Positions 5,731 to 42,977 of a DNA stretch of 46,069 nt are shown piece after piece; positions within the stretch are counted from its first letter, which is position 1, and the number at the start of each line of letters is the position of its first letter. Source of the stretch: a virus. The position numbers were made by a program, and so were the translations under genes. Under the pieces are notes generated by a model, which saw only the letters and a program-made list of their open reading frames with translations, was not told the origin of the DNA and did no database searches. The stretch lies in IMG/VR virus record IMGVR_UViG_3300046507_000242, positions 1 to 46,069 of that record; one strand, given 5' to 3'.

Positions 5731-5748
5731 AGCGGTAGTTGATAAATG

Positions 5749-5777
5749 AAAAAGCCAGGTTTTTAGCCTGGCTTTTT
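5749..5777. terminator. Bidirectional intrinsic terminator
   Basis: An 11-bp stem (AAAAAGCCAGG at 5749-5759 with CCTGGCTTTTT at 5767-5777) is flanked by a T-run in both orientations. It sits between converging operons: the plus-strand genes ending at 5730 and the minus-strand late operon ending at 5835. It should stop both. Confidence 0.9.
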
Positions 5778-5834
5778 TTAGATTGTTGAAGTTGATTTAA
5801 TTTCTTAAGACAGCAGAAGCTCTTCTAAATAAAA

Positions 5835-7130
5835 TCACAATGTGTCAGTTTCGTAAACAAGTGTAAAGCGAATATCCGTCGAAGCCGTTAACGCAGTTGT
5901 AGTAAGGAATGAGGATGCCCCATTGTTGATTTGCACGGCAGGTAACGATGTTGCTCCTGGAGTCGGAGCAAGTGCAAAGGTTCCCGTCACTGTAATTCCA
6001 TTACACCATCCAATAGCAGCTCCGCCACGATAGTCAGTCTGATTAGAAGCAGCGTAAGGAAGACCTGCGATGGATAGGTTTCCACTACCCGCACCGCTTA
6101 ACGCTGATGTTGCAATGCGCGCTGTTGCCATAACTAGGCGTCCCCGCTTTACGAAATAACCATCTTGCGCAGAGTAGGTGACTGTAGGATTGGTGCTACC
6201 GGTAAATGTCGGTGTCCAAGTACCATCGATAGGAGGATAATCGATGCTAGCCCCTACTTTATTAGTGAATGAGAAGGTACCAGAACCCGCATTCGGATTA
6301 TTAAACAAGTTCCCACTACCTGCAGTTGCATTTACTGCTGCGATTGTCCATACATATTGACCGCCGATCCAGGTGTTATTATTCGCATTTGCTGTGTCAA
6401 TAGTCACACATGTCGATACAACTTCAATATCGAGGTTCATGAATGTGTTACCAAATACGTAGTTACTTGTGACGTGAATACCGTTATCGGCATTACCCAT
6501 AGCACCTGTAAATCCGTTAAACGCCGCTTTGTTAATACGTAATGCATCGCCATGACCGGCGCAATTGGTAACAATGTTAACCCGATCACAGGCGAATAGG
6601 CCGTTACATTCATAGCCGGTAGCAGCTGTATTGGTACTCAGGTTATTGACGACAAGGTTTTCAAACGTGAAACTGTTAAGGGCATCAGTTAATGCAGGAT
6701 TACCAAGTTGCAACGTAACTCCTGCAAGATTACTGACGACTCCAAAATCCCGGAACGTGCTATAGAATGCTGCCCCCGTCGAGCAGGTAATCTGCAGCGT
6801 ATCGCCTGCCGATGTCATATCTATAATCGACTGCTGTGGCCCATCCCCCTCGATTTTCACACCTGTCGTCCTAGCAGTTCCGATATCCCACGTTAGCGAG
6901 CTGCATTTATATCGCCCCTTAACTAGTCTCCCAGCAGCACCGGATGTAACCAGATACGTCCACCATGCATTTAACGCCGCAGTGTCATCAGTAACCCCAT
7001 CCCCTTTAGCACCGAAGTCTTTTACACTGACTCTTTCCGACAATTTATCATGTAACGTTCTATCAACGCCTCCAGCACCAAGCAGTGAGCCTAGAAACTT
7101 AACTAGTTTTGAACCAATAAGAGTAGCCAT
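5835..7130 (-). CDS. Tail spike with pectate-lyase-like beta-helix
   Basis: A 431-residue protein. After a short hydrophobic head (residues 1-33) comes VSVKDFGAKGDGVTDDTAALNAW, the classic entry of Pectate_lyase_3-type right-handed beta-helix spikes. The middle shows the Asn- and Val-rich ladder of a beta-helix. The C-terminal 130 residues (from GTWTPTF) resemble a trimeric fibre tail. Such proteins bind and often cleave surface polysaccharide. Catalytic residues cannot be assigned. It is the last gene of the late operon and overlaps the preceding stop. Confidence 0.88.
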   Translation of the reverse strand: MATLIGSKLVKFLGSLLGAGGVDRTLHDKLSERVSVKDFGAKGDGVTDDTAALNAWWTYLVTSGAAGRLVKGRYKCSSLTWDIGTARTTGVKIEGDGPQQSIIDMTSAGDTLQITCSTGAAFYSTFRDFGVVSNLAGVTLQLGNPALTDALNSFTFENLVVNNLSTNTAATGYECNGLFACDRVNIVTNCAGHGDALRINKAAFNGFTGAMGNADNGIHVTSNYVFGNTFMNLDIEVVSTCVTIDTANANNNTWIGGQYVWTIAAVNATAGSGNLFNNPNAGSGTFSFTNKVGASIDYPPIDGTWTPTFTGSTNPTVTYSAQDGYFVKRGRLVMATARIATSALSGAGSGNLSIAGLPYAASNQTDYRGGAAIGWCNGITVTGTFALAPTPGATSLPAVQINNGASSFLTTTALTASTDIRFTLVYETDTL

Positions 7131-7845: not shown

Positions 7846-8169
7846 TTATTCAGAGCTTACAGTGCCTGAGCCTGTTGAAGAAACTCCCGTACCACCTTCC
7901 GTGACCGTAACCTCATCTCCTACTCGGTGAAATGCAACACCCCTATCTCCGCCTACACTTGAGCCACCCGTTGCTACTATATGGTGAGGAGGGCTGCAAT
8001 CAGTAATGCCAGTGTCTCCGACCCTAACCATACCGATGCCATCTGCAGTGACAATTCCAGAGCCAGTTTGCCAAGTTCCAGTAAACGTTCTGGGATGGTT
8101 AGGTGCGTTAGCAGTACAAGTGCCGGTACAGTGATCGCCTATGCGACATACGGGTTTAAGCGTTGCCAT
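7846..8169 (-). CDS. PAAR-like spike tip protein
   Basis: A 107-residue Gly/Thr/Val-rich protein with PAAR repeats: CRIGDHCTGTC near the start, MVRVGDTGITDCSPPHH in the middle and VAFHRVGDEV near the end. Cys and His are positioned as in PAAR cones that bind a metal and sharpen the central spike of contractile tails and type VI secretion systems. The length fits a simple PAAR protein. It lies between the lysis and fibre genes rather than next to the hub at 23700-26933. Confidence 0.88.
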   Translation of the reverse strand: MATLKPVCRIGDHCTGTCTANAPNHPRTFTGTWQTGSGIVTADGIGMVRVGDTGITDCSPPHHIVATGGSSVGGDRGVAFHRVGDEVTVTEGGTGVSSTGSGTVSSE

Positions 8170-8543
8170 CAGATAGCACTTCCGAGAATAGTCATGAAGC
8201 CTTCCATGAACTTGACTTTCTTACCCTGAGATGAAGTAAGCATAAGCGTATACACTGCCCGGTTCCAGTTTAGACCAACTGTCGTATCCGCTGCAATGCT
8301 AACAGTCACCGTTCCAGCAGTCCCACCGAGTACAATTTCTCCAGTAGCTGTACCGATATCCAGAACAAAGTCCGGAATGTCGTAGCCATCGTAGTTACCG
8401 TTCATGGATATGCGAGCCTTAAGCTCAGCTGTGTATCCAGTCAAATCGATAGGTAGTGTAGTGCAAGGATCCTGATAGACAAAAGACTCCGAATAATCGG
8501 AGCCCTCTGTAAGTTCGATGTTAAAGAAATTTCTATTTGTCAT
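8169..8543 (-). CDS. Probable virion/tail-associated protein
   Basis: A 124-residue beta-rich protein (FNIELTEGSDYSESFVYQD, then LTGYTAELKARI). This layout resembles small phage proteins encoded beside tail fibres, often Ig-like in fold. Function unassigned. Its start overlaps the end of the outer spanin gene and its end overlaps the PAAR gene, so it is part of a continuous late transcript. Confidence 0.6.
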   Translation of the reverse strand: MTNRNFFNIELTEGSDYSESFVYQDPCTTLPIDLTGYTAELKARISMNGNYDGYDIPDFVLDIGTATGEIVLGGTAGTVTVSIAADTTVGLNWNRAVYTLMLTSSQGKKVKFMEGFMTILGSAI

Positions 8544-8806
8544 TTAGTACAACCAGCAAGAGCAGCTTTAAGTTTTGTAGAGTAAGCATTGAGGTGATCG
8601 TTCTCTGCAGCCAGGAGAGCCAAGTTGTTATACAGCAAGTCCCCTTTTTTAGCTTGGTTAAAGTCACGAGTAGGATCATCAATCTTCGGAGCTGTGCACT
8701 TTACAGGAACCGGTACTTTTACTTCTTTAGGAACGTAGACAATTTCAGGCTTCTGCGTTGCACAACCAGCCAAGGCTAGTGCAAGGATAAAAATAAGGGC
8801 TCTCAT
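8540..8806 (-). CDS. Outer-membrane spanin subunit (Rz1-like lipoprotein)
   Basis: An 88-residue protein with a lipoprotein signal: a hydrophobic stretch and lipobox LAGC with the lipidated cysteine at residue 15. A Val/Pro/Lys-rich segment follows (PKEVKVPVPVK), as is common in o-spanins, then a helical C-terminus. It overlaps the inner spanin gene upstream by four bases. In Gram-negative hosts the i- and o-spanins span the periplasm and disrupt the outer membrane in the last step of lysis. Somewhat larger than lambda Rz1, and not nested. Confidence 0.85.
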   Translation of the reverse strand: MRALIFILALALAGCATQKPEIVYVPKEVKVPVPVKCTAPKIDDPTRDFNQAKKGDLLYNNLALLAAENDHLNAYSTKLKAALAGCTK

Positions 8807-9225
8807 TGTTTTGCTCCCAGAGAAGATTGACGGTCGGCAACCAGTGAATCCATCAAAGCCTTGCTGTTTGCGTAATCGTCAGTACCAACAGGCTTTGCTG
8901 ATAGAACTGCTGATGCGTGAGCATCGTAGGTGTTGGCCTTGACAGTAGCAACGGCAACAGCCTCGCTTGCGGCTTGGGTAGCCGAAGCTTCAGACGCAGC
9001 TACAGCTGTGACGCCTGCAGAGCAATCACTTGCTGCGCCCTGAAATTCCTGGGCAGCAGTCTGCACAGCACCAAGCTTGGCGTTAAGAGATTCAATCTCT
9101 TTTTCCTTGGACTTGTTTGACAAGTAGGAAACTCCGATTATCGTGCATAGAGCTACGATTACGGAAATGAATACGATATTGATTCCGCCCTTAAAGAATG
9201 CACGAATTGCGGCTAAGGTAAACAT
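8803..9225 (-). CDS. Inner-membrane spanin subunit (Rz-like)
   Basis: A 140-residue protein with one N-terminal transmembrane helix (about residues 17-35) followed by a charged segment and a long Ala/Ser/Glu-rich helical periplasmic domain. This is the topology of an i-spanin. It sits between the holin candidate and the outer spanin and overlaps both. Family-level sequence similarity is not obvious; the call rests on topology and context. Confidence 0.75.
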   Translation of the reverse strand: MFTLAAIRAFFKGGINIVFISVIVALCTIIGVSYLSNKSKEKEIESLNAKLGAVQTAAQEFQGAASDCSAGVTAVAASEASATQAASEAVAVATVKANTYDAHASAVLSAKPVGTDDYANSKALMDSLVADRQSSLGAKQ

Positions 9226-9476
9226 TACGATGTCTCCTTGATCATCTTCAACGCTACTGATGCGCCAAGGGCAGCGTAACCAGCAGTTAGTGTAGCGAAG
9301 GCTGTAGCCATGCTTTGAATATCAAGATGGCCGTGCATGATTTGTAGTACGCATCCGATAATAAAAAAGATCACAGCCGGAACACTGATAGCTACGGCGA
9401 AAACACGTATAGGACATAGGCTGACACCGTCTTGTTCGGTAATCAGACTTTTTAGTAAACTTAGTAATTTAGTCAT
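9225..9476 (-). CDS. Small membrane protein, probable holin
   Basis: An 83-residue protein with two hydrophobic segments (about residues 26-47 and 58-76), a charged N-terminus and a Lys/Glu C-terminus. Size and position directly after the endolysin and before the spanins fit a class II-like holin. No specific holin family was recognised. A second pair of small membrane proteins at 11862-12706 competes for this role. Confidence 0.65.
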   Translation of the reverse strand: MTKLLSLLKSLITEQDGVSLCPIRVFAVAISVPAVIFFIIGCVLQIMHGHLDIQSMATAFATLTAGYAALGASVALKMIKETS

Positions 9477-9478
9477 TT

Positions 9479-9925
9479 TTAACTCTTTAAAAACAATGAA
9501 GCTTCTGCCACTCTTCGACGAGTAAGCCCATCTATAACTTTGCCGCCAGCTTTGTTCCAGCGGCCAAATTGCCCTGCAACGAGATTTGGAGAACCGCCTT
9601 GATTCAGAAGTTTAAGAAGCGTTGAGCTAGCGAGATTTCCCACACCAAGGTTGTATGCAAAGCTTACCAATGCGCCGAGTTGATTTGGTGTAACCGGGAC
9701 CTTGATCAGAGCTTTGACTTTAACTTCGAATTCATCGTAGCGTGTTTGAACGTCAGCATCCGCTTCAGCCTGTGTGATAGTCTGACCTTTCCATACAGGA
9801 ATACGCTTTCCATCGACCATCCACATCGTTTCGCCATAGCCAATTGTCCAGACACCAACGATGTCCTGATACGCTTGAAGCTTGCACCCTTCAAATTCTT
9901 TTACTAATGGTAAACCTTCTCTCAT
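9479..9925 (-). CDS. Endolysin, T4-lysozyme-like muramidase (GH24)
   Basis: A 148-residue protein with the GH24 catalytic triad in canonical spacing: E12 in FEGCKL, D21 in AYQDIVG, and T27 in VWTIGYGE (E-x8-D-x5-T). The ALVSFAYNLGVG block and a C-terminal RRVAEASLF follow the family. It cleaves the glycan chains of peptidoglycan. There is no signal peptide or SAR helix, so export should depend on a holin. A GGAG ribosome site lies about five bases before the ATG at 9925. Confidence 0.95.
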   Translation of the reverse strand: MREGLPLVKEFEGCKLQAYQDIVGVWTIGYGETMWMVDGKRIPVWKGQTITQAEADADVQTRYDEFEVKVKALIKVPVTPNQLGALVSFAYNLGVGNLASSTLLKLLNQGGSPNLVAGQFGRWNKAGGKVIDGLTRRRVAEASLFLKS

Positions 9926-9940
9926 TACAACTCCAAATAA

Positions 9941-9974
9941 AAAATCCCAGATAACTTGATTATACTGGGATTTT
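9941..9974 (-). terminator. Intrinsic terminator between fibre and endolysin genes
   Basis: A perfect 10-bp stem (AAAATCCCAG at 9941-9950 with CTGGGATTTT at 9965-9974) is followed on the minus strand by a T-rich run. It ends the transcript coming from the fibre genes and partly separates the lysis cassette. Confidence 0.8.
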
Positions 9975-9995
9975 AAGTGAAGCGGAAGTTAAGCG

Positions 9996-10772
9996 TTACT
10001 TGCCGATAGCCATAAAATACACTGTTGCTCCGTTTACTGCTGCATTGGCACTGCTTGCAGTGGCTACGAGAGTACTAGCAGTACTATTGGTAGAAATGGT
10101 AGCTACGACTGACTGCACTCCTGCGCCTGCCTGCAGATAGTTAGCCACCCCAATTATAAATGTAGAGGGAAACGCAATAGGCAAAGTTAAGGTAGCAACT
10201 CCAGATGCGTTACTACCCGCAGCTCCCCACTGAATAATTAAGCCGCTAGGAAGTTTTTGATAGCCATTGGCACCTTGCGATGTGCCGAATTGAGCAGAAT
10301 ACTTTAGCTTTGCAGATCCTCCCGTTACAAACCATACGCTTTGCGTACCGATGGGTCCACGCTTTGTTATCTGAACATCATCCCCAGTAGCTAACGTTAA
10401 AGAAGTAATAGAGGAGTTATAAGGGAACATTACATCAGTGCCCGCACAAACAACGTTAATTGAAACGTTAGATCCTGATACTATGCTGATAGTTTCCCCG
10501 TCATCCATGGTTGCAGAACTCGGAAGAGTAATGGTACCAGTGAATGTGGAAGCCAACATAATACTTTGACCTGCATTTGCAGCTGTAAGCGTTAGTCCTG
10601 AGGTTCCGCCATTAGGAGATCCTAGCGAGTACCGTAAACCTCCAGTCTTTACCCAAGCCGTCGTAGCCAGGTTGGGGTTATTATCAAACTGTGGAGGAGT
10701 CGCTGTTGTTACGTAAGTTGACCCTGCTGTTAGCAGATCGGTCAAATTACCTAGATTTCTTGTTTTAGACAT
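9996..10772 (-). CDS. Tail fibre protein, paralogue 1
   Basis: A 258-residue beta-rich protein sharing two modules with the products of 10785-11831 and 13890-15131: a linker PPQFDNNPNLATTAWV near residues 27-41, and a C-terminal receptor-binding-type module starting at GYQKLPSGLIIQWG (about residue 170) and ending in IGK. The middle is Thr/Ser/Val-rich. The C-terminal module resembles the gp53-like tail fibre C-terminal domain. It is followed by the terminator at 9941-9974. Confidence 0.85.
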   Translation of the reverse strand: MSKTRNLGNLTDLLTAGSTYVTTATPPQFDNNPNLATTAWVKTGGLRYSLGSPNGGTSGLTLTAANAGQSIMLASTFTGTITLPSSATMDDGETISIVSGSNVSINVVCAGTDVMFPYNSSITSLTLATGDDVQITKRGPIGTQSVWFVTGGSAKLKYSAQFGTSQGANGYQKLPSGLIIQWGAAGSNASGVATLTLPIAFPSTFIIGVANYLQAGAGVQSVVATISTNSTASTLVATASSANAAVNGATVYFMAIGK

Positions 10773-10784
10773 TTTGTTTATTCC

Positions 10785-11831
10785 TTATTTTCCGAAAGCC
10801 GTCCAATAGTATCCAACACCCGATGCCGCGGTCCCTGAAGTATTATGGTAACCAACCTGGAATTGGGATGAGTTTACTACTTGGAAGCCAAATGAACCGG
10901 CACCAAGACTTGCCCCAATTGATCCTGCTATAGCAAAACAGGAAGTTGGAAAAGCAATCGGGAAATTAAAGGTTTGAGTACTATCGCTAGCCCCTGTGTA
11001 CGAACTATTGGCCCATTGAATAATCAAGCCACTCGGGAGTTTCTGATAGCCGCTTCCGGAGAGAGACGAACCAAACGCGCCGATACCAAGGCCGGATGAA
11101 GCCATATACCAACCTGCAGCTACACCATTGGAAACAAAAGTAACTTGCTGACCCGAAATCAGAACTGCAGAAGACGAGTTTGTTCCGATTGTACTTTGAA
11201 TAGTATCAGTACCATTCGCTGCAACAGTTCCCCCAAATGCACCGCCTAATGCTGTAAACGTAGTACCTACTGGAACAAGAGATAGAGCGGGAAGTGTAGC
11301 TGTAACACCTGCTGCTCCGAATTGGCCCCAACCGTTCATTGAAGAAATAGATATATTTCCGTTTGCAGTAAATGACTGTCCATTCGCTTGAGGGTAGTGC
11401 AGACCTGCAGATATCACATACGCGGTGCTAGCCGAGCGGATTGTATTATCAAACTGAGATGCAGTCGTAGTTCTGGAAGCGCTCTCCAAAGCAATAACCC
11501 AGCCCGTAAGCATGTTCTGAACAAGGAAACGTTCACCGGGGAGAATGGAAATCGAAGAAAAGCTTGAACCAAGCAGAAGCATCGTATCAGCACCTGCCGC
11601 GTTCACAGTGCACGTTGCTGAACTGTTGTTAAAGATAGAATACGATCTTGACGGGAAATTAGTAGCATCAATCGCAGGGAGCGTGATCGTGTATCCGCCA
11701 GCTCCTGAGATGATGAATTGTTTATCGTATGTAGCCGCGCCTGCGCCAAGAGTAGTCGTTCCAGTAATGGAAACTACTGCTTGTTGGTTAGCAGGGCTTG
11801 TGGGATATAGTGGATTACCGAAGTAGCTCAT
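10785..11831 (-). CDS. Tail fibre protein, paralogue 2
   Basis: A 348-residue fibre with an extra N-terminal beta domain (residues 1-115, YTITLPAIDA and following), then the QFDNTIRSASTAYV linker shared with its paralogues, a variable middle, and the GYQKLPSGLIIQWA module near residue 265 running to a C-terminal AFGK. The shared linker and tip with different stems suggest duplication and module swapping among fibres. Confidence 0.85.
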   Translation of the reverse strand: MSYFGNPLYPTSPANQQAVVSITGTTTLGAGAATYDKQFIISGAGGYTITLPAIDATNFPSRSYSIFNNSSATCTVNAAGADTMLLLGSSFSSISILPGERFLVQNMLTGWVIALESASRTTTASQFDNTIRSASTAYVISAGLHYPQANGQSFTANGNISISSMNGWGQFGAAGVTATLPALSLVPVGTTFTALGGAFGGTVAANGTDTIQSTIGTNSSSAVLISGQQVTFVSNGVAAGWYMASSGLGIGAFGSSLSGSGYQKLPSGLIIQWANSSYTGASDSTQTFNFPIAFPTSCFAIAGSIGASLGAGSFGFQVVNSSQFQVGYHNTSGTAASGVGYYWTAFGK

Positions 11832-22746: not shown

Positions 22747-23463
22747 TTAAAGTCCAATATCTTGCTTGATTTTTTCGATTTTCTTTTGAAGTTGTTTCTT
22801 GATGTAATTGTATCGATTTATATTAACACCAAGCTTTGCTGCGATTTGAGGCGCAGGCATCAGCTTTACATTATCGAGAATAAATTTTTCATCGTGAGTT
22901 AGCTGACTCATTAGATACGTCATAAGCTCCGCACCTTCATTGTACTGAGTAAACTCTGCAGGTTTGTCCGAAGCCGATTCTACGAGATCTGAGTAAAGCG
23001 AATTACGATACTTTATAACTTGTGGTTTGCTCCAGCCCAATGACTTTGCCATTTCTTCGTCAGTAGGCTCACGATTTAGCTGATCGTTAAGATTTTGCAG
23101 ATGATTGTTCCATTCCCTATATTGCAATTGCATATTCTCAGGAAGGCGAACAGCATTCTGATACTTGTAGTTCATACGCCGAACACGTTGTAAATAATTC
23201 GTAACATGCGTAGCTAATTGCGTACCTTTGGAAGGGTCATAAGTATTAATTGCCTTGATTGCCCACTTCTTTGCTTCTGCGCTAAGTGCTGAATTAGGCA
23301 GTGTACCGGACTGACGATTAACTTCGCTATAGATAACCCCACTCAGGTGGTTTACCAGATTTCCAAGATCACGTTTACTTCCAGTATTCTTCCATTGATC
23401 GAACAATTCCTGATCTTTAGATCGGTAGTCGATAAACTCGGGTTTTGCGATTTCTTCAGCCAT
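22747..23463 (-). CDS. Phage sigma-70-like RNA polymerase sigma factor
   Basis: A 238-residue protein with recognisable sigma regions. Region 2 (about residues 30-103) carries AINTYDPSKGTQLATHVTNYLQR and RRMNYK. Region 3 (about 104-155) begins VRLPENMQ and includes REPTDEEMAKSLGWS. Region 4 (about 180-235) holds a helix-turn-helix, APQIAAKLGVNINRYNYI. It lacks a long region 1. It should redirect host RNA polymerase to phage promoters. It is encoded inside the baseplate gene run, its start overlapping the upstream stop by one base. The TTGGTATAA motif or AT-rich boxes upstream of 35253 are possible targets. Confidence 0.85.
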   Translation of the reverse strand: MAEEIAKPEFIDYRSKDQELFDQWKNTGSKRDLGNLVNHLSGVIYSEVNRQSGTLPNSALSAEAKKWAIKAINTYDPSKGTQLATHVTNYLQRVRRMNYKYQNAVRLPENMQLQYREWNNHLQNLNDQLNREPTDEEMAKSLGWSKPQVIKYRNSLYSDLVESASDKPAEFTQYNEGAELMTYLMSQLTHDEKFILDNVKLMPAPQIAAKLGVNINRYNYIKKQLQKKIEKIKQDIGL

Positions 23464-33639: not shown

Positions 33640-35253
33640 TTAAAAATCAAACACATCGTTATCGTTCTTAACTTCATCTACCGTAACAAATTCACCTTTC
33701 AGAACCATGTAAGCGATATTTGCAAATACCGCACTATGGAACCAATCGTCACACAGGTCTTCGTCCTTTTTATACAAACGACGCCCAGTAACAGATTCCT
33801 CTTCGAAGATGTTAAGTGCATCCTGCCAGTATTCAGACATAAGATTCCACGAAGGTGTTTCTATCTTTTCACGTCCAAGCTTGGCTTTAAGCACCATTGT
33901 ATCCATGTTAGTCGTTCTATCCGCTGAATAGAATTGACCTTCTCTGTCCCAACGAAGTGTAGACTTTGCTGCTACATATTGTACAGAGCAAACTCTATCA
34001 TGTCCAACGCTTTTACGTAGTAATTCAACTTGCAATTGTCCGACGCCTCTATCTGAGGCTAGCATTGTACATTTGTACTGTGCATATAGTTCCTCAACGC
34101 GTTTTACCTGATCAAGAATATCGATACCATTCAGACGCTGGGCGTATAGCAAATAGGCTCTACCATTCCAGTCGTAACCAAGAATAGTAATAACCGTATA
34201 GGAATTAGAGCCGCCGCTAACGGACCAATCTACTCCAAGAACTGTATGAAGAATGCTACGTTTATCAACCGGAAAAGTTCTATCCCACTCAAGCTTGTTA
34301 GGATTACAACAAGCCATAACTTCTTTAAGGGAAAGGGGTCGACCAGCAAGTCCGCTCGGGCATCCGAACACTTCGTTAGCAAGTTTAGGAATCGAATAGG
34401 TCTTTGCTTTATGCAGCAACTCTTTCCACTTCTTAGGCTTTGTACGGGCTGGGAATATCAACTGAGGCAAATGGAAGCTTAGGTGGTCTTTCTCCATAGG
34501 GCGTGCAGCAACCCATTTGCCAGTTTTCATATCTAGCAAACCGCCACAGAACACACAGCCAGGGCCATCGGGATTAGCCGTAAGCATTCTATAACAAACA
34601 TCGAAATCAATGGGTAGGGAATACTTTCCACAGTGTGTACAACGCACTGCCCATTCCATCATGTTGCCTTGCTTAAACTTTTGCGTAAGAGAATTAGTCT
34701 CTGTCTTTGCAGTTCCAGTATACCTACGAAAAGCATAGTCCGAAGCACCTAAGGTCTCTGCAAGAATAGGCGCGCACTCAATGCTGGTATCCTGAAATTC
34801 ATCCAGATACAATGCATCCGCAAACACTCCACGAATACGGTCGGCATCCTGTTCCGTTTCAGCGTAACCAAGTGTCACAGCACTGCCGTTTGTAAATGAT
34901 TTGGAGAATACGTTTTTACGGGTTGAAGGATCAGTAAAGTGCCTCTTGATCAAAGGAGAGCTAAGAAAGGGATCCAGATAAGCAGTGGAAAACCGTGATG
35001 TCTGCTGAGCCAACGGAGAACTGAAAAGAGTCGAAAAGTGAGGACGAACAAGGCTATTGGCTACAATAGCTGCGCCAAGAGATACTGATTTACCAATCTG
35101 ACGACCCGCCATGAGGGTCATTTCATTAGGGGCAATATCGTAGATGATTTCAAAAGGTTTGTAATCGTCCAGGTTCAACGGTTTACCTTTTAGCTGCAAA
35201 AGTGCCCGTGAAATTTCAGAAGGTCTAAGTTTAAGAAGGCTATTTAGTTCCAT
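33640..35253 (-). CDS. Terminase large subunit
   Basis: A 537-residue DNA-packaging ATPase/nuclease. Walker A is GRQIGKS (residues 50-56), Walker B is ALYLDEFQD with D151 and E152, and the nuclease domain begins near VLGVDWSVSGG with D342 followed by a second acidic block (LASDRGVGQ) and a C-terminal DLCDDWFH. Two CxxC pairs (C205/C208 and C233/C236) form a probable zinc knuckle between ATPase and nuclease, reminiscent of GpA-like terminases. No small subunit gene is adjacent. First gene of the minus-strand late operon; AT-rich boxes upstream (35290-35345) may hold its promoter. Confidence 0.93.
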   Translation of the reverse strand: MELNSLLKLRPSEISRALLQLKGKPLNLDDYKPFEIIYDIAPNEMTLMAGRQIGKSVSLGAAIVANSLVRPHFSTLFSSPLAQQTSRFSTAYLDPFLSSPLIKRHFTDPSTRKNVFSKSFTNGSAVTLGYAETEQDADRIRGVFADALYLDEFQDTSIECAPILAETLGASDYAFRRYTGTAKTETNSLTQKFKQGNMMEWAVRCTHCGKYSLPIDFDVCYRMLTANPDGPGCVFCGGLLDMKTGKWVAARPMEKDHLSFHLPQLIFPARTKPKKWKELLHKAKTYSIPKLANEVFGCPSGLAGRPLSLKEVMACCNPNKLEWDRTFPVDKRSILHTVLGVDWSVSGGSNSYTVITILGYDWNGRAYLLYAQRLNGIDILDQVKRVEELYAQYKCTMLASDRGVGQLQVELLRKSVGHDRVCSVQYVAAKSTLRWDREGQFYSADRTTNMDTMVLKAKLGREKIETPSWNLMSEYWQDALNIFEEESVTGRRLYKKDEDLCDDWFHSAVFANIAYMVLKGEFVTVDEVKNDNDVFDF

Positions 35254-36087: not shown

Positions 36088-36297
36088 ATGGCAGTTATCA
36101 AGACCATCATCAGCGTTGCTTCGACCGACACCGAATACACCATTCCGGGCGACTGGTCCGCAGAACAAATCAAGACCAACTACGCAAATGATATCCCCGG
36201 TATCGCTTCGATGCAGTATGAAGAAAAGCTGATCAACGTCGATGGCGGCCAAGCCCGCGAGATCACCTTCAAGCCGCGTACTGGTACGAAGGGCTAA
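36088..36297 (+). CDS. Ubiquitin-like protein, PRTRC protein C type
   Basis: A 69-residue protein. The start is set at ATG 36088, which has AAGGA eight bases upstream; a longer TTG reading from 36001 runs through the promoter and is rejected. The strand-helix-strand pattern (KTIISVASTDTEYTI, then DWSAEQIKTNYAND, then QYEEKLINVDGGQAREITF) fits a beta-grasp fold. Size and the GTKG C-terminus match the PRTRC protein C / prokaryotic ubiquitin family as I remember it. It ends in a single glycine with no following residues, so no trimming would be needed before adenylation. Codons are strongly biased (ATC, ACC, GGC, AAG), unlike the AT-rich gene downstream. It is framed by two promoter copies and two terminators. 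Confidence 0.82.
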   Translation: MAVIKTIISVASTDTEYTIPGDWSAEQIKTNYANDIPGIASMQYEEKLINVDGGQAREITFKPRTGTKG

Positions 36298-36314
36298 GCA
36301 CTAGCTTAGTTTTT
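36294..36314 (+). terminator. Terminator 1 overlapping the ubiquitin-like stop codon
   Basis: CTAAGC (36294-36299), loop ACTA, GCTTAG (36304-36309), then TTTTT. The stem includes the TAA stop of the ubiquitin-like gene. Confidence 0.75.
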
Positions 36315-36320
36315 ACGTTG

Positions 36321-36357
36321 ACGAACAGCAAGGTCCTAGCCCTGCTGTTCGTTTTCC
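36321..36357 (+). terminator. Terminator 2 behind the ubiquitin-like gene
   Basis: A perfect 10-bp stem, ACGAACAGCA (36321-36330) with TGCTGTTCGT (36343-36352), then TTTT and, after CCTG, a further run of eight or more T. Together with terminator 1 it makes the ubiquitin-like gene largely monocistronic. No TTGGTATAA is seen before the next gene, so downstream genes probably depend on read-through. Confidence 0.85.
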
Positions 36358-36415
36358 TGTTTTTTTTAGTCAAGCTAGGAGCTTAAGAAAAGCAGGGAAA
36401 TAATAAGGAATAACC

Positions 36416-37315
36416 ATGCGTAAATTTAAATTACCCGTTACGTCAGGAAACCTCGTTGGCCTGATTCACGAAATGAGAACTGGCGCAGCTGCAAAACTTT
36501 CGGCATTCTGCTCTCAGCAGATACTCGATAAAAAGCTGTCCACGAAAACATTCAAGTATGATTTTGATATTGCGGGTAGGCGTTCTGGCGGTCAGAGAAA
36601 ATCTGTACAGAAACTTCGGGAAATTCTCTACAAGCATATTAAGAAACAAATTCCTTATCTGGAATATGTAAGTTCTGGTGATTCGTTTTTGACAATGCAT
36701 TCGAGTCGTAGTAATCAGGTTATATTCAACCTTGAATCGTACTACGCAAAAATCACCATTACGTCTGGAAATGGGGATATTGCAAGGGAACTGCATAATC
36801 TTCCTTGGCGTAAGAGCATTGTCAGATATTCCCGATTTCTTAATTACAAAGCTTTGAGAAAGGGTATTCCCCTGAATACTGTATTAGCGTCATTTAATCA
36901 TCATATTCACGAAGATGATCAAGAGGCTTATAATCGGTGGACGGAGGGACGTAATGCAGAGAGTATTTCTGTAAGAATAAAAATGAAGGTTAAGCTTGTG
37001 GTAACCATTTCTAGCTATGAGTATGTTGGATATACACAGCACAGGCCTCCTTATATAAATAGCTATGATGATTATGAAAAGACCCTTTCTGGACGAGATC
37101 TGATAGATTTCAGAAATCCAAATAACTGGGTGACTTCTGATCTTACAAGTACAACAGCATCCCGAAGCAATACCCACCCAGGATACGAAAAGTACCATAC
37201 AGCGGAAAAGATATTTCTGGTCCTTGACGATTTACTCAAGGTAATTACAACACTTACGCGGAGAGTACAGTATGATACTGCAGCGTTTAATATCGGAAGC
37301 GCAGAAGCTTCCTGA
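36416..37315 (+). CDS. Unknown protein in the ubiquitin-like module
   Basis: A 299-residue, basic protein that I do not recognise. Residues about 45-75 are rich in Lys/Arg (RRSGGQRKSVQKLREIL), then an alternating beta segment (LTMHSSRSNQVIFNLESYYAKITI), then HNLPWRKSIVRYSRF, NHHIHEDDQEAYNRW and two Tyr-rich stretches. No CxxC, RING, kinase or protease motif is visible. Codons are AT-rich and less biased than in the ubiquitin-like, E2-like, JAB and E1 genes, so it may be expressed at lower level or acquired separately. It overlaps the 84-residue gene by 44 bases. Confidence 0.7.
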   Translation: MRKFKLPVTSGNLVGLIHEMRTGAAAKLSAFCSQQILDKKLSTKTFKYDFDIAGRRSGGQRKSVQKLREILYKHIKKQIPYLEYVSSGDSFLTMHSSRSNQVIFNLESYYAKITITSGNGDIARELHNLPWRKSIVRYSRFLNYKALRKGIPLNTVLASFNHHIHEDDQEAYNRWTEGRNAESISVRIKMKVKLVVTISSYEYVGYTQHRPPYINSYDDYEKTLSGRDLIDFRNPNNWVTSDLTSTTASRSNTHPGYEKYHTAEKIFLVLDDLLKVITTLTRRVQYDTAAFNIGSAEAS

Positions 37316-37526
37316 TCTCGGAACTGAAGTCCATAAAGCAATTTTGGACTACAACGGTATTAACGAAGTTAAGTCAGCTACTGATCTTGAGATTTTGCAT
37401 ATCGCAAGTACGCGTAAGTTCCAAGCCGAAACAGTGCGACGGACTCAGGCTAATCTCAAAACGATTGAACTGAATGTTGTAAAAGCTAAACACGCAATTA
37501 CCGAGGATATTGAGGATTTCGTATGA
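37272..37526 (+). CDS. Small helical protein in the ubiquitin-like module
   Basis: An 84-residue, mainly helical protein (VHKAILDYNG, then DLEILHIASTRKFQAETVRRTQANLK). It starts inside the end of the 299-residue gene and ends in the ATGA overlap with the E2-like gene, so it is coupled to both. Unrecognised. It could be a partner or adaptor of either neighbour. Confidence 0.65.
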   Translation: MILQRLISEAQKLPDLGTEVHKAILDYNGINEVKSATDLEILHIASTRKFQAETVRRTQANLKTIELNVVKAKHAITEDIEDFV

Positions 37527-38299
37527 CAGACATCGCTATCGAAGCTAGTCAGCCACTTGAAGTTGATAAGATTGAGCTTCCTAAATTGGAAGAGCAATTG
37601 GTGGATGTAAATGGCCAACACGTTATTCTTTTAGAAGATTGTGTTGCCTTCATGGTTGGCGATGAAAAAAGCCAGATTGAAAAACGTATCACATACGAGG
37701 ATTTCAACGCAATCGTAGGCGCTGTAGTTAATCATCGTAACGAACAATCGATGGAGGGATTTCAGCTTCCGTCAAACTGTTTTTACTTTGCTCGTTCTGG
37801 TAGTGACATCCACTTGAGTTGCTATTACAGTGAGCGTATCGCTGAGGTTAAACACCTTACAAAGAAATACGTCATTAAAACTCCGAATCTTATTATTAGT
37901 CACAAGCTGTTCAAAGGTGGCGATAAGACTTGGAAAATAGAGGCTAACCGTAGTCGCTACTTCTGTACCAATGCAAAGGTAGGTAACCTACCTAAGGCAT
38001 TTATTGATCAAGTAGAGCACAGTAAACATATCTACCTGATGCCTTTCCCGAATACTTATTCGGAAGGAGCATTGTGCTTTGGTGGAAATTCGATGCCTAG
38101 CCAATTCACGGATAATAACCTTCGTGGTTTGGACTGGTATTATCAAGTTCTATTTGAGTCCCCATTCAACAATGACTTGGGTATTCGTGCTCTTAGAGAC
38201 GAACCCTCCATTGAAGGCTGGTTTAAGAAATTGTCTGATGTTGCAAAAGCGAACACAGATTTCCCGTACGAATCAATTCGTGGTTATAAAGCTATTTAA
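37523..38299 (+). CDS. E2-like protein, PRTRC protein B / prokaryotic E2 family D type
   Basis: A 258-residue protein whose C-terminal half has the E2 active-site layout: LMPFPNTYSEGALCFGG with P176-N177 and candidate catalytic cysteine C185, followed by SPFNNDLG. The PN-x-x-Y-x-x-G-x-x-C pattern is what I associate with PRTRC protein B, which Pfam groups as prokaryotic E2 family D; this is from memory. An upstream PSNCFYFARSGSDIHLSCYY block is the expected beta-sheet. In a conjugation pathway it would accept the ubiquitin-like protein from the E1 as a thioester. It lies ten bases before the JAB gene. Confidence 0.75.
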   Translation: MTDIAIEASQPLEVDKIELPKLEEQLVDVNGQHVILLEDCVAFMVGDEKSQIEKRITYEDFNAIVGAVVNHRNEQSMEGFQLPSNCFYFARSGSDIHLSCYYSERIAEVKHLTKKYVIKTPNLIISHKLFKGGDKTWKIEANRSRYFCTNAKVGNLPKAFIDQVEHSKHIYLMPFPNTYSEGALCFGGNSMPSQFTDNNLRGLDWYYQVLFESPFNNDLGIRALRDEPSIEGWFKKLSDVAKANTDFPYESIRGYKAI

Positions 38300-38309
38300 G
38301 GAATAGAAC

Positions 38310-39671
38310 ATGGATATCATCAGCCAATTCATTAGCTGCGTAGTTACTCCCAACGAGCTTCAAACTGCAGTTGACGCAGGCTACACCGAGATCTATGTCT
38401 TGACCGGTGAGAAGGAAAATCCGATCATCAAGCATCACAAGCTTCGTGGTCAAAATCGGTATATCCGTCTTGCAGTTACTTCGCTTCCGACTAACTATAA
38501 ATCGGAAAAGATCGTACAGGAAGTTAACTTTCTCCCTGCCGGTAAAATCCCGGTTGAACTCTTTGACCAAGTTGTTGCATTCTTTAAACAGGTCATGGAA
38601 GTCAAGAAGTCCGAGCTTGAAGCAATGATCTGGATTTGTTGGGATCAAGAGAACGGCTATCATCTTATCGTTCCTGATCAACGCGTATCCAAAGCTTCGG
38701 CATCGTATGACTGGGCCTCGTTGCCTGCAGGAAAGACGATTGTGGCGGATATTCATAGTCACAATACTATGGGCGCTTTCTTTAGTGGAACCGATAACCG
38801 TGATGACCAAAGCAATATCGGGTTCTCAGGTGTGGTAGGTCGTCTCAAGGATGCGAATCCCCAGACTGTATGGCGTTTCAACTATCGTGCTCAAAAGCTC
38901 GAATGTGATCTGGACGACATTTTCACAATGCCCGCACGTCCTGAAGTAGCTGTTCCGGAAGACTGGATTAGCAAAATCCAAACACCTACGTATAATACCA
39001 CGGTGTATGGAGGGAACAGCCAAAAGGGAAAAGCGGATCATTTGAAAGCGTGGCAATACAAAAGGGGCGACGCAGCAAACGTCGAAAGGGAAGGAAGTAG
39101 AATGGGTCCGCAGTTGCAGGATCAGCGGAGGTTACTTCCCGGCGAACCCGGAGACACACGTGACATCGACTGGCAAGGCGACTTCTGGGGCCTCGCACAA
39201 GACCTTTCACTGAGACATCCTGACGATAGCTTTCTGGATCTAGCAGAGGGTGGCGATGAGCGTGCTACTGCGGCAGAGCGTGCTCTGTCGTATCTCCGTG
39301 AAGATCCGGAATATCCTAGTGGAGTTGCAGGTCTCGCTGAGTATAATCCGGTGTTTGACCCGGATGTTGTAGATCAACGTACCGGCGAGATTCGCGGCAA
39401 TCGCTATGATGAGAGTCACATTGGTCTGTACGCAGGCGATGATCGTTATGATGAAGCACGTGACCTTCACGGTCATGAAGTTGCTGAAGCATTTTGTGTC
39501 ATTGATGATATGATGTCTCAACTGGATGGTAAAGATGAACTGGTTGAGAACATCATGGCTGATATGATTCACATGGCAACTCCTGGATTCAAGGAAACTC
39601 TGTTCAAGCGTCTTTATCAGGAACTCCCTGATGAAGTGCAAGAACGGATCCAAACTAACGGAATCCATTAA
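38310..39671 (+). CDS. JAMM/JAB-domain isopeptidase, PRTRC protein A type, with long C-terminal extension
   Basis: A 453-residue protein. The JAMM zinc motif is complete: H149 and H151 in DIHSHNTMG and D162 in SGTDNRDD (HxH-x10-D), with a probable catalytic glutamate upstream (E104). JAMM proteases remove ubiquitin-like proteins from substrates. The core ends near residue 205. The remaining roughly 245 residues are unusual: a Pro/Gly/Arg-charged linker (210-300), then an acidic, ordered domain (AEAFCVIDDMMSQLDG, then VENIMADMIHM). An AAGGAA ribosome site precedes the ATG. Transcription ends at the hairpin 39681-39707. Confidence 0.85.
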   Translation: MDIISQFISCVVTPNELQTAVDAGYTEIYVLTGEKENPIIKHHKLRGQNRYIRLAVTSLPTNYKSEKIVQEVNFLPAGKIPVELFDQVVAFFKQVMEVKKSELEAMIWICWDQENGYHLIVPDQRVSKASASYDWASLPAGKTIVADIHSHNTMGAFFSGTDNRDDQSNIGFSGVVGRLKDANPQTVWRFNYRAQKLECDLDDIFTMPARPEVAVPEDWISKIQTPTYNTTVYGGNSQKGKADHLKAWQYKRGDAANVEREGSRMGPQLQDQRRLLPGEPGDTRDIDWQGDFWGLAQDLSLRHPDDSFLDLAEGGDERATAAERALSYLREDPEYPSGVAGLAEYNPVFDPDVVDQRTGEIRGNRYDESHIGLYAGDDRYDEARDLHGHEVAEAFCVIDDMMSQLDGKDELVENIMADMIHMATPGFKETLFKRLYQELPDEVQERIQTNGIH

Positions 39672-39680
39672 ACCTGAGAG

Positions 39681-39708
39681 GCGCTCTTAATCGAGCGCTT
39701 CTTTTTTT
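39681..39708 (+). terminator. Intrinsic terminator after the JAB gene
   Basis: GCGCTC (39681-39686) pairs with GAGCGC (39693-39698), followed by TTC and seven T. The next small genes (from 39720) have no obvious TTGGTATAA, so they probably rely on read-through. Confidence 0.85.
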
Positions 39709-39719
39709 AGGGAATTGAA

Positions 39720-39890
39720 ATGAGAGTTGTAATAGTAGTGGGCCTGGATCTTGGCTGGGATAATATCGTCGCTGTTTTTGAAGAAGGTAAGCACTCCAAG
39801 GAAGACTTGGAAAAGACCTTCCCACAAGAAGATAGATATATTATTTTCTATAAAGACCTTGAGGAATACGATCTGGACGAGTACAGATAA
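39720..39890 (+). CDS. Small acidic protein, 56 aa
   Basis: ATG at 39720 follows AGGGA by six bases. Product begins MRVVIVVGLDLGWDNI and ends LDEYR. It is acidic with an N-terminal strand. Its last A is shared with the ATG of the next gene. The short pattern of a strand followed by a charged helix and a final strand resembles many small phage inhibitors, but nothing specific is recognised. Confidence 0.6.
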   Translation: MRVVIVVGLDLGWDNIVAVFEEGKHSKEDLEKTFPQEDRYIIFYKDLEEYDLDEYR

Positions 39891-40015
39891 TGCATTACGA
39901 TATGACTAAATGGTTTCTTTACTTTCTTGAATGCCAGGCAAGCCCTAACAAGAAACATAGATTTAGAGACTACGATCATTTCCTGGAATGGATATTGGAA
40001 TCATTTAATGATTGA
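39890..40015 (+). CDS. Small aromatic-rich protein, 41 aa
   Basis: Starts in a TAATG overlap with the previous gene. Product begins MHYDMTKWFLYFLE and ends WILESFND. It is rich in Trp, Phe, Tyr and His and could be a helical peptide that binds a partner or a membrane surface. No ribosome site other than coupling. Kept because of that coupling; otherwise uncertain. Confidence 0.45.
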   Translation: MHYDMTKWFLYFLECQASPNKKHRFRDYDHFLEWILESFND

Positions 40016-40023
40016 GGATACGA

Positions 40024-40305
40024 ATGAGCGGACTTGAATGCTACGAATGTAGTAAATGGGTTGGTCATTGTCAATGTCCCCCTGTAGACAAAGAACTAAA
40101 CATAATGACTGAACTTGATCCCAATGAATCCAATCCCGTACGCCTCTGGGCTGAAATCTGGAAATTTAGAAGTGAAGCCAAAGGTCCTGAGGGATTCGAC
40201 ACCTGGCGTGACGCGGCGATAAATGAAAAGATAAGACGTCTTAAAGCAGAACGTGATCTTCAAACTCTTAAAGATCGTCTTGTAACAGCAGTAAAGGATT
40301 TATAA
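40024..40305 (+). CDS. Small Cys-rich protein between JAB and E1 genes
   Basis: A 93-residue protein started at ATG 40024 (GAGGA just upstream; a TTG twelve bases earlier is less likely). The N-terminus has C6, C9, C16 and C18 (CYEC-x6-CQC), a possible zinc knuckle. Residues 28-93 are charged and helical (WRDAAINEKIRRLKAERDLQTL). It overlaps the next gene (TAATG). Unrecognised; it may be an adaptor in the pathway or an unrelated early protein. Confidence 0.65.
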   Translation: MSGLECYECSKWVGHCQCPPVDKELNIMTELDPNESNPVRLWAEIWKFRSEAKGPEGFDTWRDAAINEKIRRLKAERDLQTLKDRLVTAVKDL

Positions 40306-40544
40306 TGAAAACCCATGACATTTGCGGAACCTGTAAGGTAGAACACGAAGTCGAAGACCTTCGTCCTTATGGTCCAAATTATTCGCTGCTATGTTTTACC
40401 TGTTTGAAATCTTCGCCTGAAATGGAAGCAGTTGCTAAAGCTAATTTTCTGGCGCAGCTCAATGCTGCTGAGAAACAGAGCAATGTAGTCATTATGGGGG
40501 AAGGCACTGGTCCTCGTCCAATGAATACAGATTCTTTGGTATAA
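40305..40544 (+). CDS. Small zinc-ribbon-like protein
   Basis: A 79-residue protein with two CxxC pairs, C7/C10 (CGTC) and C30/C33 (CFTC), separated by 19 residues as in a small zinc ribbon. The C-terminal half is helical and then disordered. Its stop overlaps the TTGGTATAA promoter of the E1 gene at 40536. Unrecognised. With its neighbour at 40024 it is the only Cys-rich protein in the module. Confidence 0.65.
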   Translation: MKTHDICGTCKVEHEVEDLRPYGPNYSLLCFTCLKSSPEMEAVAKANFLAQLNAAEKQSNVVIMGEGTGPRPMNTDSLV

Positions 40545-40552
40545 GAATATTG
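40536..40552 (+). promoter_or_regulatory. Candidate phage promoter before the E1-like gene
   Basis: TTGGTATAAGAATATTG: core plus N2-ATATTG, the same layout as the two copies before the ubiquitin-like gene. The core overlaps the stop codon of the zinc-ribbon gene and lies 70 bases before the ATG at 40614. This gives the E1 gene its own transcription start. Confidence 0.65.
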
Positions 40553-40613
40553 AACGGACTTCAATGTCCTTAAACAAGGCCACATCGCCTAGCTTTTTTA
40601 ACCTGGAGCACAT

Positions 40614-41831
40614 ATGTTTAAATTTCGTCCGAGCACTATTCCTACCAACATTTTCGTAGTTGGCTGTGGCGGCACCGGATCTCGGCTTGTTCCGGCATTG
40701 GTGCAGTTTATTCGTTCGATCACCAAAGAGCACACCCCCACGGGATGGCTCGGTTCGACAAACATCGTCCTGGTAGATGGAGATGTGGTCGAGCAGAAGA
40801 ATCTGCTTCGTCAAAACTTCATCGGTAGCGACGTAGGCAAGAACAAAGCAGCTGTGCTTGCGAATCGTTACAGCAAGGCGTATGGCATGAACGTGGTGGC
40901 ATATCCGAAATTCATCGAAAAGGGAATGGGGCCAACGGCATTCCGTAGTGATCTGATCAATGTCTCTGGTCTTAGTATCGAAAGCCACACGAACGACATG
41001 GTAATTATGTGTGTCGACAGTGCTGAAGCTCGTCGAATCGTCCTGGCTGCGGTAGGTCCGGTTTCGTCGTCGAGACGAACTGTGTTTATCGATGCAGGTA
41101 ACGAGGATGCATTCGGTCAGGTTCGTATGTTTACGAACGATATTCTGTATCAGAGTTCATACGATAATCAGGAAGAGTTCAAGACCAAGTACAAGAAGCC
41201 TGAGCGTATCGCATACACGCCTGAGCCCGTTAGCTTTATTCCTTACGATCACGAGTTCTACGATAATCTTCAAGATAATCCTGGACTCGGCAGTTGCGCT
41301 GATCTCGATCAGACGTTGGCAATCAATTCGTTGATGGCTATGCACATCCTGGCATTCGTGCAGAACTATTACTACAACAAGGTGATAGACTACCATCAGA
41401 TCTCGATTGATATCGGAAGTGGTGCAGCGTATTACACCAAGAACGATATAACGACGTATCGCAATAGCACATTGACATACGGTCATAAAGATTACAGCAA
41501 TCTCGGCATGGGTGGGAACAAGGGATCCTTCATCGGGGTATGTAACTGTGCTCTTGCCGGCGATGTCTTCGATCCGTTCTTGGCTCGTAATGCGGCAGAG
41601 TTGAAGAAAATCGAAAATGCTATGGCTGCAGCGTTGAAAGGAGCAGGTGAAGGAGAAAAGCCTGTAGCGGAAGAAGTGGTGAAGGCGAAGAAGCCCCGGA
41701 AGAAGGCAGAAGCTGTGGAAGAAGCAATTGTGTATTCCACAGAAGCAGTCATGGCCGAAACCGAAGCTCCTGTTCGGTTCCATACTGGTGAGAATGATGT
41801 TTCCACTCTTTCAGCGACGGACATGCTCTAA
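40614..41831 (+). CDS. E1/ThiF-like adenylating enzyme, PRTRC ThiF type
   Basis: A 405-residue protein. The Rossmann loop GCGGTGS is at residues 17-23. Adenylation residues follow in order: D55 and D57 (LVDGDVVE), N63, R66 and Q67 (NLLRQNF), K76/K78 (GKNKA), and D135 (MCVDSAEAR). A candidate catalytic cysteine is C228 in GLGSCADLDQTLAINSLMA; C310 and C312 are alternatives. ThiF/E1 enzymes adenylate the C-terminal glycine of ubiquitin-like proteins. From about residue 330 the tail is Glu/Lys/Ala-rich (VKAKKPRKKAEAVEE) and disordered. Codon use is biased, as in the ubiquitin-like gene. A GGAG ribosome site precedes the ATG. Confidence 0.85.
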   Translation: MFKFRPSTIPTNIFVVGCGGTGSRLVPALVQFIRSITKEHTPTGWLGSTNIVLVDGDVVEQKNLLRQNFIGSDVGKNKAAVLANRYSKAYGMNVVAYPKFIEKGMGPTAFRSDLINVSGLSIESHTNDMVIMCVDSAEARRIVLAAVGPVSSSRRTVFIDAGNEDAFGQVRMFTNDILYQSSYDNQEEFKTKYKKPERIAYTPEPVSFIPYDHEFYDNLQDNPGLGSCADLDQTLAINSLMAMHILAFVQNYYYNKVIDYHQISIDIGSGAAYYTKNDITTYRNSTLTYGHKDYSNLGMGGNKGSFIGVCNCALAGDVFDPFLARNAAELKKIENAMAAALKGAGEGEKPVAEEVVKAKKPRKKAEAVEEAIVYSTEAVMAETEAPVRFHTGENDVSTLSATDML

Positions 41832-41968: not shown

Positions 41969-42556
41969 TTAGTCTGGCATATCAGGCCAAAATCTGTTTC
42001 CTTTAGAGCAATTTTCTGTTTTAGTAAGAACTTGTAGATTGAAGTGGTTATGGAGTCCACACACAATATCGCTTTGTAAAGGTACTATGTGATCCACTTC
42101 ATGCGGTAATCCAGTCTCTACAGAGATATTGGCAGCTTCTCTATAAAAGGACTCCATTACCTGTACATCTGCCCAAGAAGGAGTTGCTTTGGAACTAATG
42201 ACTCGTCTCTTGGAACCCTTGCAGTTTACTTTTTCTGGATTTTGTTTAGACCATTGTCTTGTAGATTCTCTAGCTGCTTCTGGATTATTCCAATACCTAG
42301 CTTTTCTTCTTTCAGATTCTTTCTCTATGTTTTCTAAATAGTACTTTCTGTTATATGCTTTAATATCTCTAACTTGCTGTTTGGCTTTTACCTTATTACT
42401 ATTATTTATATAGTAGCTCTGCGAACGTAGTTTGTCACACATGCAGCAATCACCTCTTAAAAAACGTTCAGAAATATGCCCATTTTTACAAGGTTTTCCA
42501 GTGAAATATCTTTTAAGTCCAGCTGCTTGAGCATCTGATTTAGAAATTATGTTCAC
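41969..42556 (-). CDS. HNH endonuclease (free-standing homing type)
   Basis: A 195-residue protein. The N-terminal half has CKNGH and CCMC cysteines typical of the zinc-binding part of phage HNH proteins, then a Lys/Arg/Asn/Tyr-rich DNA-binding stretch (RKYYLENIEKESERRKARYW). The C-terminal HNH core is HEVDHIVPL, then CGLHNHFNLQVL, then ENCSKGNRF. Free-standing HNH genes invade phage genomes between structural genes. Its AT-rich codons differ from the genes on both sides. Confidence 0.88.
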   Translation of the reverse strand: MNIISKSDAQAAGLKRYFTGKPCKNGHISERFLRGDCCMCDKLRSQSYYINNSNKVKAKQQVRDIKAYNRKYYLENIEKESERRKARYWNNPEAARESTRQWSKQNPEKVNCKGSKRRVISSKATPSWADVQVMESFYREAANISVETGLPHEVDHIVPLQSDIVCGLHNHFNLQVLTKTENCSKGNRFWPDMPD

Positions 42557-42563
42557 AGTTAAT

Positions 42564-42977
42564 TTATGAAATACGTTCTCTACTTGAATTAGTAAGGTTA
42601 TCTACCACAGTAAACTGAGCTAATGTGGTGCCATCCTGCCTAAGCATAACCAGTGTACCAGCAACTTTATCCCATTGCCAACTTCCAAGGGATTCATCCT
42701 GGATGTTTCTTGTAATAGTGTATAGGGATTGCGTTACGACGTTTACAACACCTTGAATAGCACCGAATGCGTACAACAGATAAGTGCCAGTAGTAGCAGG
42801 AGTAAAGGTAAAGTTATAAAGCGGACCTGCACCTGCCGATGCGAAACTTACGACTGGAGTTACAGCCGGAACCCCGTTAAATAGCAATGCTAGATCGGGA
42901 GGTACGCTAAGTCCTGTGCTAGGTCCTTGCGCAGTAACGGTAACAAGATTGTTTACTTCAATAGTTTGTGTATACAT
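42564..42977 (-). CDS. Probable virion protein with Ig-like fold
   Basis: A 137-residue beta-rich protein (VNNLVTVTAQGPSTGLSV, then LYNFTFTPATTGTYLLYAFG) with a layout seen in small phage capsid- or tail-decorating proteins. It is separated from the HNH gene by seven bases and overlaps the upstream gene by one. Function unassigned. Confidence 0.6.
   Translation of the reverse strand: MYTQTIEVNNLVTVTAQGPSTGLSVPPDLALLFNGVPAVTPVVSFASAGAGPLYNFTFTPATTGTYLLYAFGAIQGVVNVVTQSLYTITRNIQDESLGSWQWDKVAGTLVMLRQDGTTLAQFTVVDNLTNSSRERIS

Follow-up and report, generated by a model that had tools for sequence, protein, structure and literature searches.

The IMG/VR virus record analysed here, a window of 46,069 bases in which terminase, tape measure, baseplate-like and tail fibre genes are encoded, carries at positions 36088–41831 a module comprising a ubiquitin-like protein (Ubl), an E2-like conjugating enzyme (E2), a JAMM-type protease (JAB) and an E1-like activating enzyme (E1). 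All four components of a Ubl system are present with their catalytic residues, and the module is probably a complete and active Ubl conjugation–deconjugation pathway used by the phage, a reading of the sequence in which we place good confidence. Ubl conjugation in bacteria is known as an antiphage defence; in this case, by contrast, a whole phage clade owns a complete Ubl pathway as what are apparently core genes rather than a stray cassette. An earlier note on this DNA had described the four-gene set and its motifs, all of which were found where it had placed them, although it had overlooked the two genes between Ubl and E2 (the F-position protein and small protein S in Table 1) and the terminase as the immediate large neighbour.

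The enzyme assignments were borne out by profile searches, in which E2 matched Prok-E2_D, JAB matched both Prok-JAB and PRTRC_A, and E1 matched both ThiF and PRTRC_ThiF (Table 1); the Prok-E2_D match exceeds the Pfam gathering threshold, and E2 additionally matches PRTRC_B (3e-4). E2 possesses the motif P176-N177-x7-C185, with P174, N177, C185 and G187 invariant in 30/30 relatives. JAB contains H149-x-H151-x7-S159-x2-D162 and an upstream E104, all five named residues being retained in 28/28 intact open reading frames (ORFs), and a tryptophan, W111, is invariant in a small set of relatives. The PN-x7-C and HxH-x7-S-x2-D spacings correspond to those of classical E2s and classical JAMM proteases, respectively. 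E1 contains GCGGTGS (residues 17–23) and NLLRQ (63–67), and eight of its residues (G17, G19, G20, D55, R66, K78, D135 and C228) are invariant in 30/30 relatives. Cys228, in an S-C-A context and preceding a long helix, presumably sits where non-canonical E1s have their catalytic cysteine, judging from known E1 families. Sequence searches of the PDB with E2, JAB and Ubl gave no useful relative, and cellular relatives of JAB, mostly from Clostridia, share merely 30–40% identity with it. One clade member (L091) has a very long E1 frame (8141–11299, about 1,050 residues) and a long E2 frame (5200–6651, about 480 residues), which are possible domain fusions.

The window Ubl ends in RTGTKG, and a G-x-K-G C-terminus is invariant in an alignment of 21/21 phage Ubl relatives. 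The claim that this small protein has a beta-grasp fold was upheld both by an AlphaFold2 model, which shows a beta-beta-alpha-beta-beta arrangement (pLDDT, the model's confidence score, 90.8), and by hhalign comparison of the phage Ubls with plasmid PRTRC_C (P 1.2e-6, 44 columns aligned, reaching the common GTKG end). Beta-grasp domains (protein L, protein G, PB1 and Ub-like) head the structural matches of the model in the PDB, and Pfam Prok_Ub was touched weakly by 2/21 relatives (best E 0.004).

The number of Ubl domains per gene varies within the clade, from one to two (records L010, L012, L019, L024, L049 and L050), three (Vibrio phage D69) and five (L046), and in several cases extra residues follow the last G-x-K-G (INYSK in D69, ND in L049 and a long tail in L021); removal of these residues would have to precede Ubl activation. 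The two repeats in L010 are identical as protein (66/66 residues) with 166/198 (84%) identity in DNA and a ratio of nonsynonymous to synonymous divergence (dN/dS) of 0.01, and those of L019 and L024 resemble them (range 95–100% protein identity, 84–87% DNA identity). Orthologous Ubls of close phages diverge far more, as in the 75% identity between the window and L009. Polyubiquitin genes likewise have repeats that are protein-identical within a genome while orthologues drift, and the phage Ubl genes of the L010 type match this pattern, suggesting that protein-identical precursor repeats arose in phages also. The repeats may differ in DNA because recombination between them is selected against, although protein identity would still have to matter. 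Near-identity is not general across members, most repeats in L049, D69 and L046 having diverged (45–72% identity). No Ubl copy fused to a phage protein, which might have hinted at a target, was found in 15 records.

Relatives were sought by scanning IMG/VR with JAB, E1 and terminase alignments, followed by profile scans. Alignments were required, a single-sequence E1 scan of viral contigs having returned no match. A distant DNA search of the module against phage records also gave no match. Among the E1 search matches were Salmonella phage Arash, Vibrio phages D69, D148 and D181, and Burkholderia phage BgVeeders33, and the three relative neighbourhoods that were fetched have Ubl followed by E2-JAB-E1 in the same order as the window. 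The large terminase subunit (TerL) encoded in the window is 48% identical to Arash TerL and 44% identical to its D69 counterpart, which places the three in one clade; the window is a fragment from a clade of tailed phages of about 165–193 kb, comprising Arash, D69 and many IMG/VR contigs. In D69 the annotated start of E1 (L002:7932–8942) removes the nucleotide-binding motif, and the reading frame continues open further upstream; there is no clear ATG before GCGGTGS, and translation might begin at a non-canonical codon such as ATT.

An architecture recurs among these relatives: TerL and, at the other end, the marker gene DS42, both on the minus strand, enclose a plus-strand series Ubl-F-S-E2-JAB-E1. 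Of 56 terminase relatives, 37 were testable, having at least 5.5 kb of sequence upstream, and in 35/37 of these terminase-bearing IMG/VR contigs Ubl, E2, JAB and E1 adjoin the terminase divergently, while in the remaining 2/37 Ubl and E1 are located elsewhere on the same contig. Arash, D69, D148 and D181, all members of the clade, carry the module at the same place, where it is annotated as hypothetical or structural proteins. The F-position protein is kept at the equivalent position in many relatives, with F and S recognised by profile only in closer ones. The earlier note had placed the module beside a tail operon, which did not hold: the module lies between a terminase gene and an operon of putative virion genes, and the tail genes that could be recognised are on the far side of the terminase.

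Inheritance of the module appears to have followed that of the terminase. Neither the E1 nor the E2 tree showed strongly supported conflict with the terminase tree, JAB showed four conflicts, two of them involving the interrupted genes of L034 and L036 described below, and distances correlated with those of TerL for each enzyme (Mantel r of 0.87 for E1, 0.86 for JAB and 0.72 for E2, each 0/999 permutations). Pairwise dN/dS, where synonymous sites were unsaturated, was about 0.09–0.19 for JAB, E1, E2 and F, indicating purifying selection, and the invariance of motifs and retention of gene order in about 30 diverged relatives go beyond chance. These data suggest that the module is apparently a core gene set of the clade.

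The JAB gene is interrupted at the HxH motif in L034 (7508–9947), L035 (same positions) and L036 (8267–9949). In L036 the interruption contains a group I intron, matched by RF00028 at 29.1 bits (E 1.4e-5), which is short of the gathering threshold. Those in L034 and L035, at a site two codons away, have core sequence in common with it and in addition a homing-endonuclease-like ORF.

One of the nearest known counterparts of the phage module is the PRTRC cassette of plasmids and mobile elements (TIGR03734-03742), the type 6d system of Iyer et al. (2006, PMC1779556). Both have the order Ubl ending in GTKG, unknown gene of ~300 residues, E2 of family D, JAB and ThiF-like E1, and the type 6d layout, in which a Ubl with C-terminal glycine, an unknown gene, a family D E2, JAB and E1 stand side by side, is found in the window. 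The equivalence to PRTRC A, B, C and ThiF that had been proposed nevertheless stands only in part: type 6d ancestry is supported, but scores fall below the curated NCBIfam cut-offs (window bits/cut-off 74.2/101.8 for A, 95.8/144.75 for ThiF and 20.3/131.45 for B, with no match for C), the F-position protein has no match to PRTRC_F by hhalign, and the histidine of the plasmid E2s is missing, phage E2s having SxFN[NDY]DL (FN[NDY]DL in 13/13) where plasmid-type PRTRC_B has SxF[TS]HPN (4/5). The module is therefore best regarded as a diverged phage branch, whose type 6d ancestry appears, on sequence grounds, to be real but distant, and which would be 6d-like in its working while not being a PRTRC member by the definition tested. 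Tandem Ubl genes and core status are features of the phage side in comparison with plasmid PRTRC. The absence of ParB and other PRTRC plasmid genes, already remarked on, was confirmed: no ParB was found in the window (a fragment) or in 15 clade records of 165–193 kb, and profile searches that matched their positive controls detected neither PRTRC E nor PRTRC F in the window or in 13 clade records.

BgVeeders33 (OK665841) is, like the source of the window, a phage with Ubl, E2, JAB and E1; unlike it, this 33-kb phage lies outside the clade, lacks a related terminase and encodes a genuine PRTRC set, its E, C, F, B and A exceeding the curated cut-offs. Its complete PRTRC set and ThiF-like E1 (L004, 4213–8699) are mostly annotated as hypothetical. 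Many of the IMG/VR contigs L051–L074 (mostly 20–60 kb) carry PRTRC-like E2-JAB-E1, a good part of them with ParB-like proteins also, and are possibly phage-plasmids. Two further systems bear comparison. The bacterial antiphage system Bil, in which BilC processes BilA, a Ubl with two domains (PMC11354881), co-encodes Ubl, E1, E2 and JAB as the phage module does; Bil is host-encoded and the module phage-encoded, and common family membership is not established by this comparison. The TAPI (Ubl) and TAPK (JAB-NlpC) proteins of lambda/T1 tail assembly (PMC1779556) also pair a phage Ubl with a JAB near structural genes, but lack E1 and E2 and belong to the tail operon itself.

As regards catalysis, processing, conjugation and target, we infer the following course. 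E1 would adenylate the C-terminal Gly69 of Ubl and transfer Ubl to its own Cys228, from which Ubl would pass to Cys185 of E2, and E2 would then join it to the proteins targeted. JAB would cut back the precursor forms (the poly-Ubl and tailed Ubls of relatives) and strip Ubl from targets, and the F and S proteins are likely to be clade-specific partners or target selectors. The pathway would most likely act within the infected cell, on phage virion or assembly proteins or on host proteins, a virion or assembly target being weakly favoured by the site of the module beside the terminase and putative virion genes. A more ambitious proposal, towards which we lean slightly less than against it, is that these phages run a polyubiquitin-like system of their own, wholly virus-encoded, in which the lytic cycle could not be completed unless Ubl, once processed by JAB, were attached to proteins of the virion or the host.

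Evidence of expression comes from Arash, whose particle proteome includes Gp246, Gp247, Gp248, Gp249 and Gp251 with 5, 3, 2, 5 and 2 unique peptides, respectively (PMC10585845, Table 2). GenBank labels gp246 (E1) and gp248 (E2) as structural. The numbering in the proteome paper and in GenBank disagrees, as a shift of one would explain, and E1, JAB and E2 were detected either way. The GenBank gp251 frame differs from that of the real Arash Ubl ORF, and since gp251 is in the wrong frame the Arash Ubl may have been missing from the database searched. The real ORF, of 66 residues (L003:107–307), is overlapped by the annotated gp251c in another frame, an annotation that needs correction. A role as virion proteins was considered from these proteomic data and downgraded, given the presence of clear non-virion enzymes and the possible offset of one in numbering.

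Several observations weigh against the interpretation of the module as an active pathway at work in the phage. The Arash preparation also contained DNA ligase, primase and other replication enzymes (PMC10585845), so that detection there denotes expression or co-purification rather than location in the virion. The window Ubl has no direct family match in Pfam or NCBIfam by profile search, and was therefore examined by alignment, structure model and profile–profile comparison; the structural matches of its model in the PDB are weak, none being significant (best E 0.046). It is a single domain with no C-terminal tail, and therefore would itself need no processing. The F protein (model pLDDT 71) gave no structural match in PDB or BFVD. 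Several IMG/VR contigs are near-identical, so that there are fewer independent cases than contigs counted, 28 distinct clade members remaining after removal of close copies (without L071 and L073). Finally, the histidine of the plasmid family is replaced in the phage E2; a conserved downstream histidine is part of the 6d E2 site (PMC1779556), presumably the histidine of plasmid SxF[TS]HPN, and the phage active site may thus be rewired relative to 6d.

On the use to which the enzymes are put, counter-defence and superinfection exclusion are serious rivals, which overlap with the biochemical claim. The first, which we consider rather unlikely, is that the enzymes interfere with host immunity that is Ubl-based or primed by E1 and E2 (Bil, CBASS Cap2), with JAB stripping tags or with Ubl and E1 serving as decoys. 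Bil is said to interfere with phage assembly (attributed to Hor et al. 2024), which counts in favour of this explanation, as does the fact that Bil and CBASS deploy such enzymes against phages (PMC11354881, PMC12355090). JAB by itself could strip tags; yet stripping requires no conservation of a complete E1-E2-Ubl set, and the conjugating enzymes are universally kept. Moreover, presence in 37/37 testable contigs and a phylogeny tracking that of the terminase point to a core function, not to variable counter-defence. Somewhat less probable again is that the module is phage-carried immunity, shielding the infected cell from competing phages by superinfection exclusion. Related bacterial Ubl operons are antiphage and type 6d cassettes reside on mobile elements, but phage defence cargo is usually patchy, whereas this module is universal and vertically inherited in the clade, and PADLOC (in whose library a Bil model is unconfirmed) called nothing in the window past generic E1-E2 similarity.

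A sulfur-carrier pathway, with Ubl as a ThiS/MoaD-like carrier activated by a ThiF-like enzyme, is very improbable: E1 does belong to the ThiF superfamily, but there is a dedicated E2 with an invariant active-site cysteine, the clade has poly-Ubl genes, Ubl ends in GxKG rather than GG, and no rhodanese or sulfur gene is among the conserved members. That the module is a chance assembly or a decaying, functionless plasmid cassette we find scarcely credible, since, common as related cassettes are on plasmids (E1 relatives in 308 records), catalytic residues are intact in about 30 diverged genomes, with low dN/dS and conserved order.

No study of phage-encoded Ubl conjugation or of PRTRC function was found beyond Iyer 2006 and reviews, in a search outside which the main Bil/Bub papers lay. 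PRTRC/6d systems were predicted in 2006 (PMC1779556) and their function is a long-standing question, which may be answered most readily in a lytic phage whose growth phenotype is clear. Arash is cultured and its particle proteome exists, which allows a direct test of whether a virus uses Ubl tagging for its own replication, and of which proteins would be tagged.

Table 1. The Ubl module of the window and its immediate neighbours.
Feature	Position	Strand	Evidence or remark
Large terminase subunit (TerL)	33640..35253	-	Divergent neighbour, clade marker; phrog_675 3.4e-52
Ubl, 69-residue predicted beta-grasp protein, C-terminus GTKG	36088..36297	+	AlphaFold2 model; hhalign to plasmid PRTRC_C
F-position protein, 299 residues	36416..37315	+	Position kept in many relatives
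Small protein S, 84 residues	37272..37526	+	Profile match, same position, in closer relatives
E2-like conjugating enzyme, predicted active-site Cys185, PFPN-x7-C	37523..38299	+	Pfam Prok-E2_D 8.7e-7
JAB/JAMM metalloprotease, long C-terminal extension	38310..39671	+	PRTRC_A 1e-20; Prok-JAB 3e-9
Short phage-family ORF located between JAB and E1	40012..40305	+	phrog_17468 1.6e-5
Short phage-family ORF with C-x2-C...C-x2-C, also located between JAB and E1	40305..40544	+	phrog_18256 7e-16
E1-like activating enzyme, candidate catalytic Cys228	40614..41831	+	ThiF 1.1e-16; PRTRC_ThiF 2.4e-27
DS42, convergent downstream marker gene of the clade	42564..42977	-	Homologue at equivalent site in relatives, including Arash gp245 (labelled structural protein)

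Promoter-like sites did not exceed what would be expected by chance. A phage sigma factor gene lies at 22747–23463 on the minus strand (phrog_351 1.6e-13), and RNA polymerase subunits are encoded in Arash. Directly after E1, at 41969–42556 on the minus strand, is an Endonuclease VII/HNH-like gene, which is probably a free-standing homing endonuclease.

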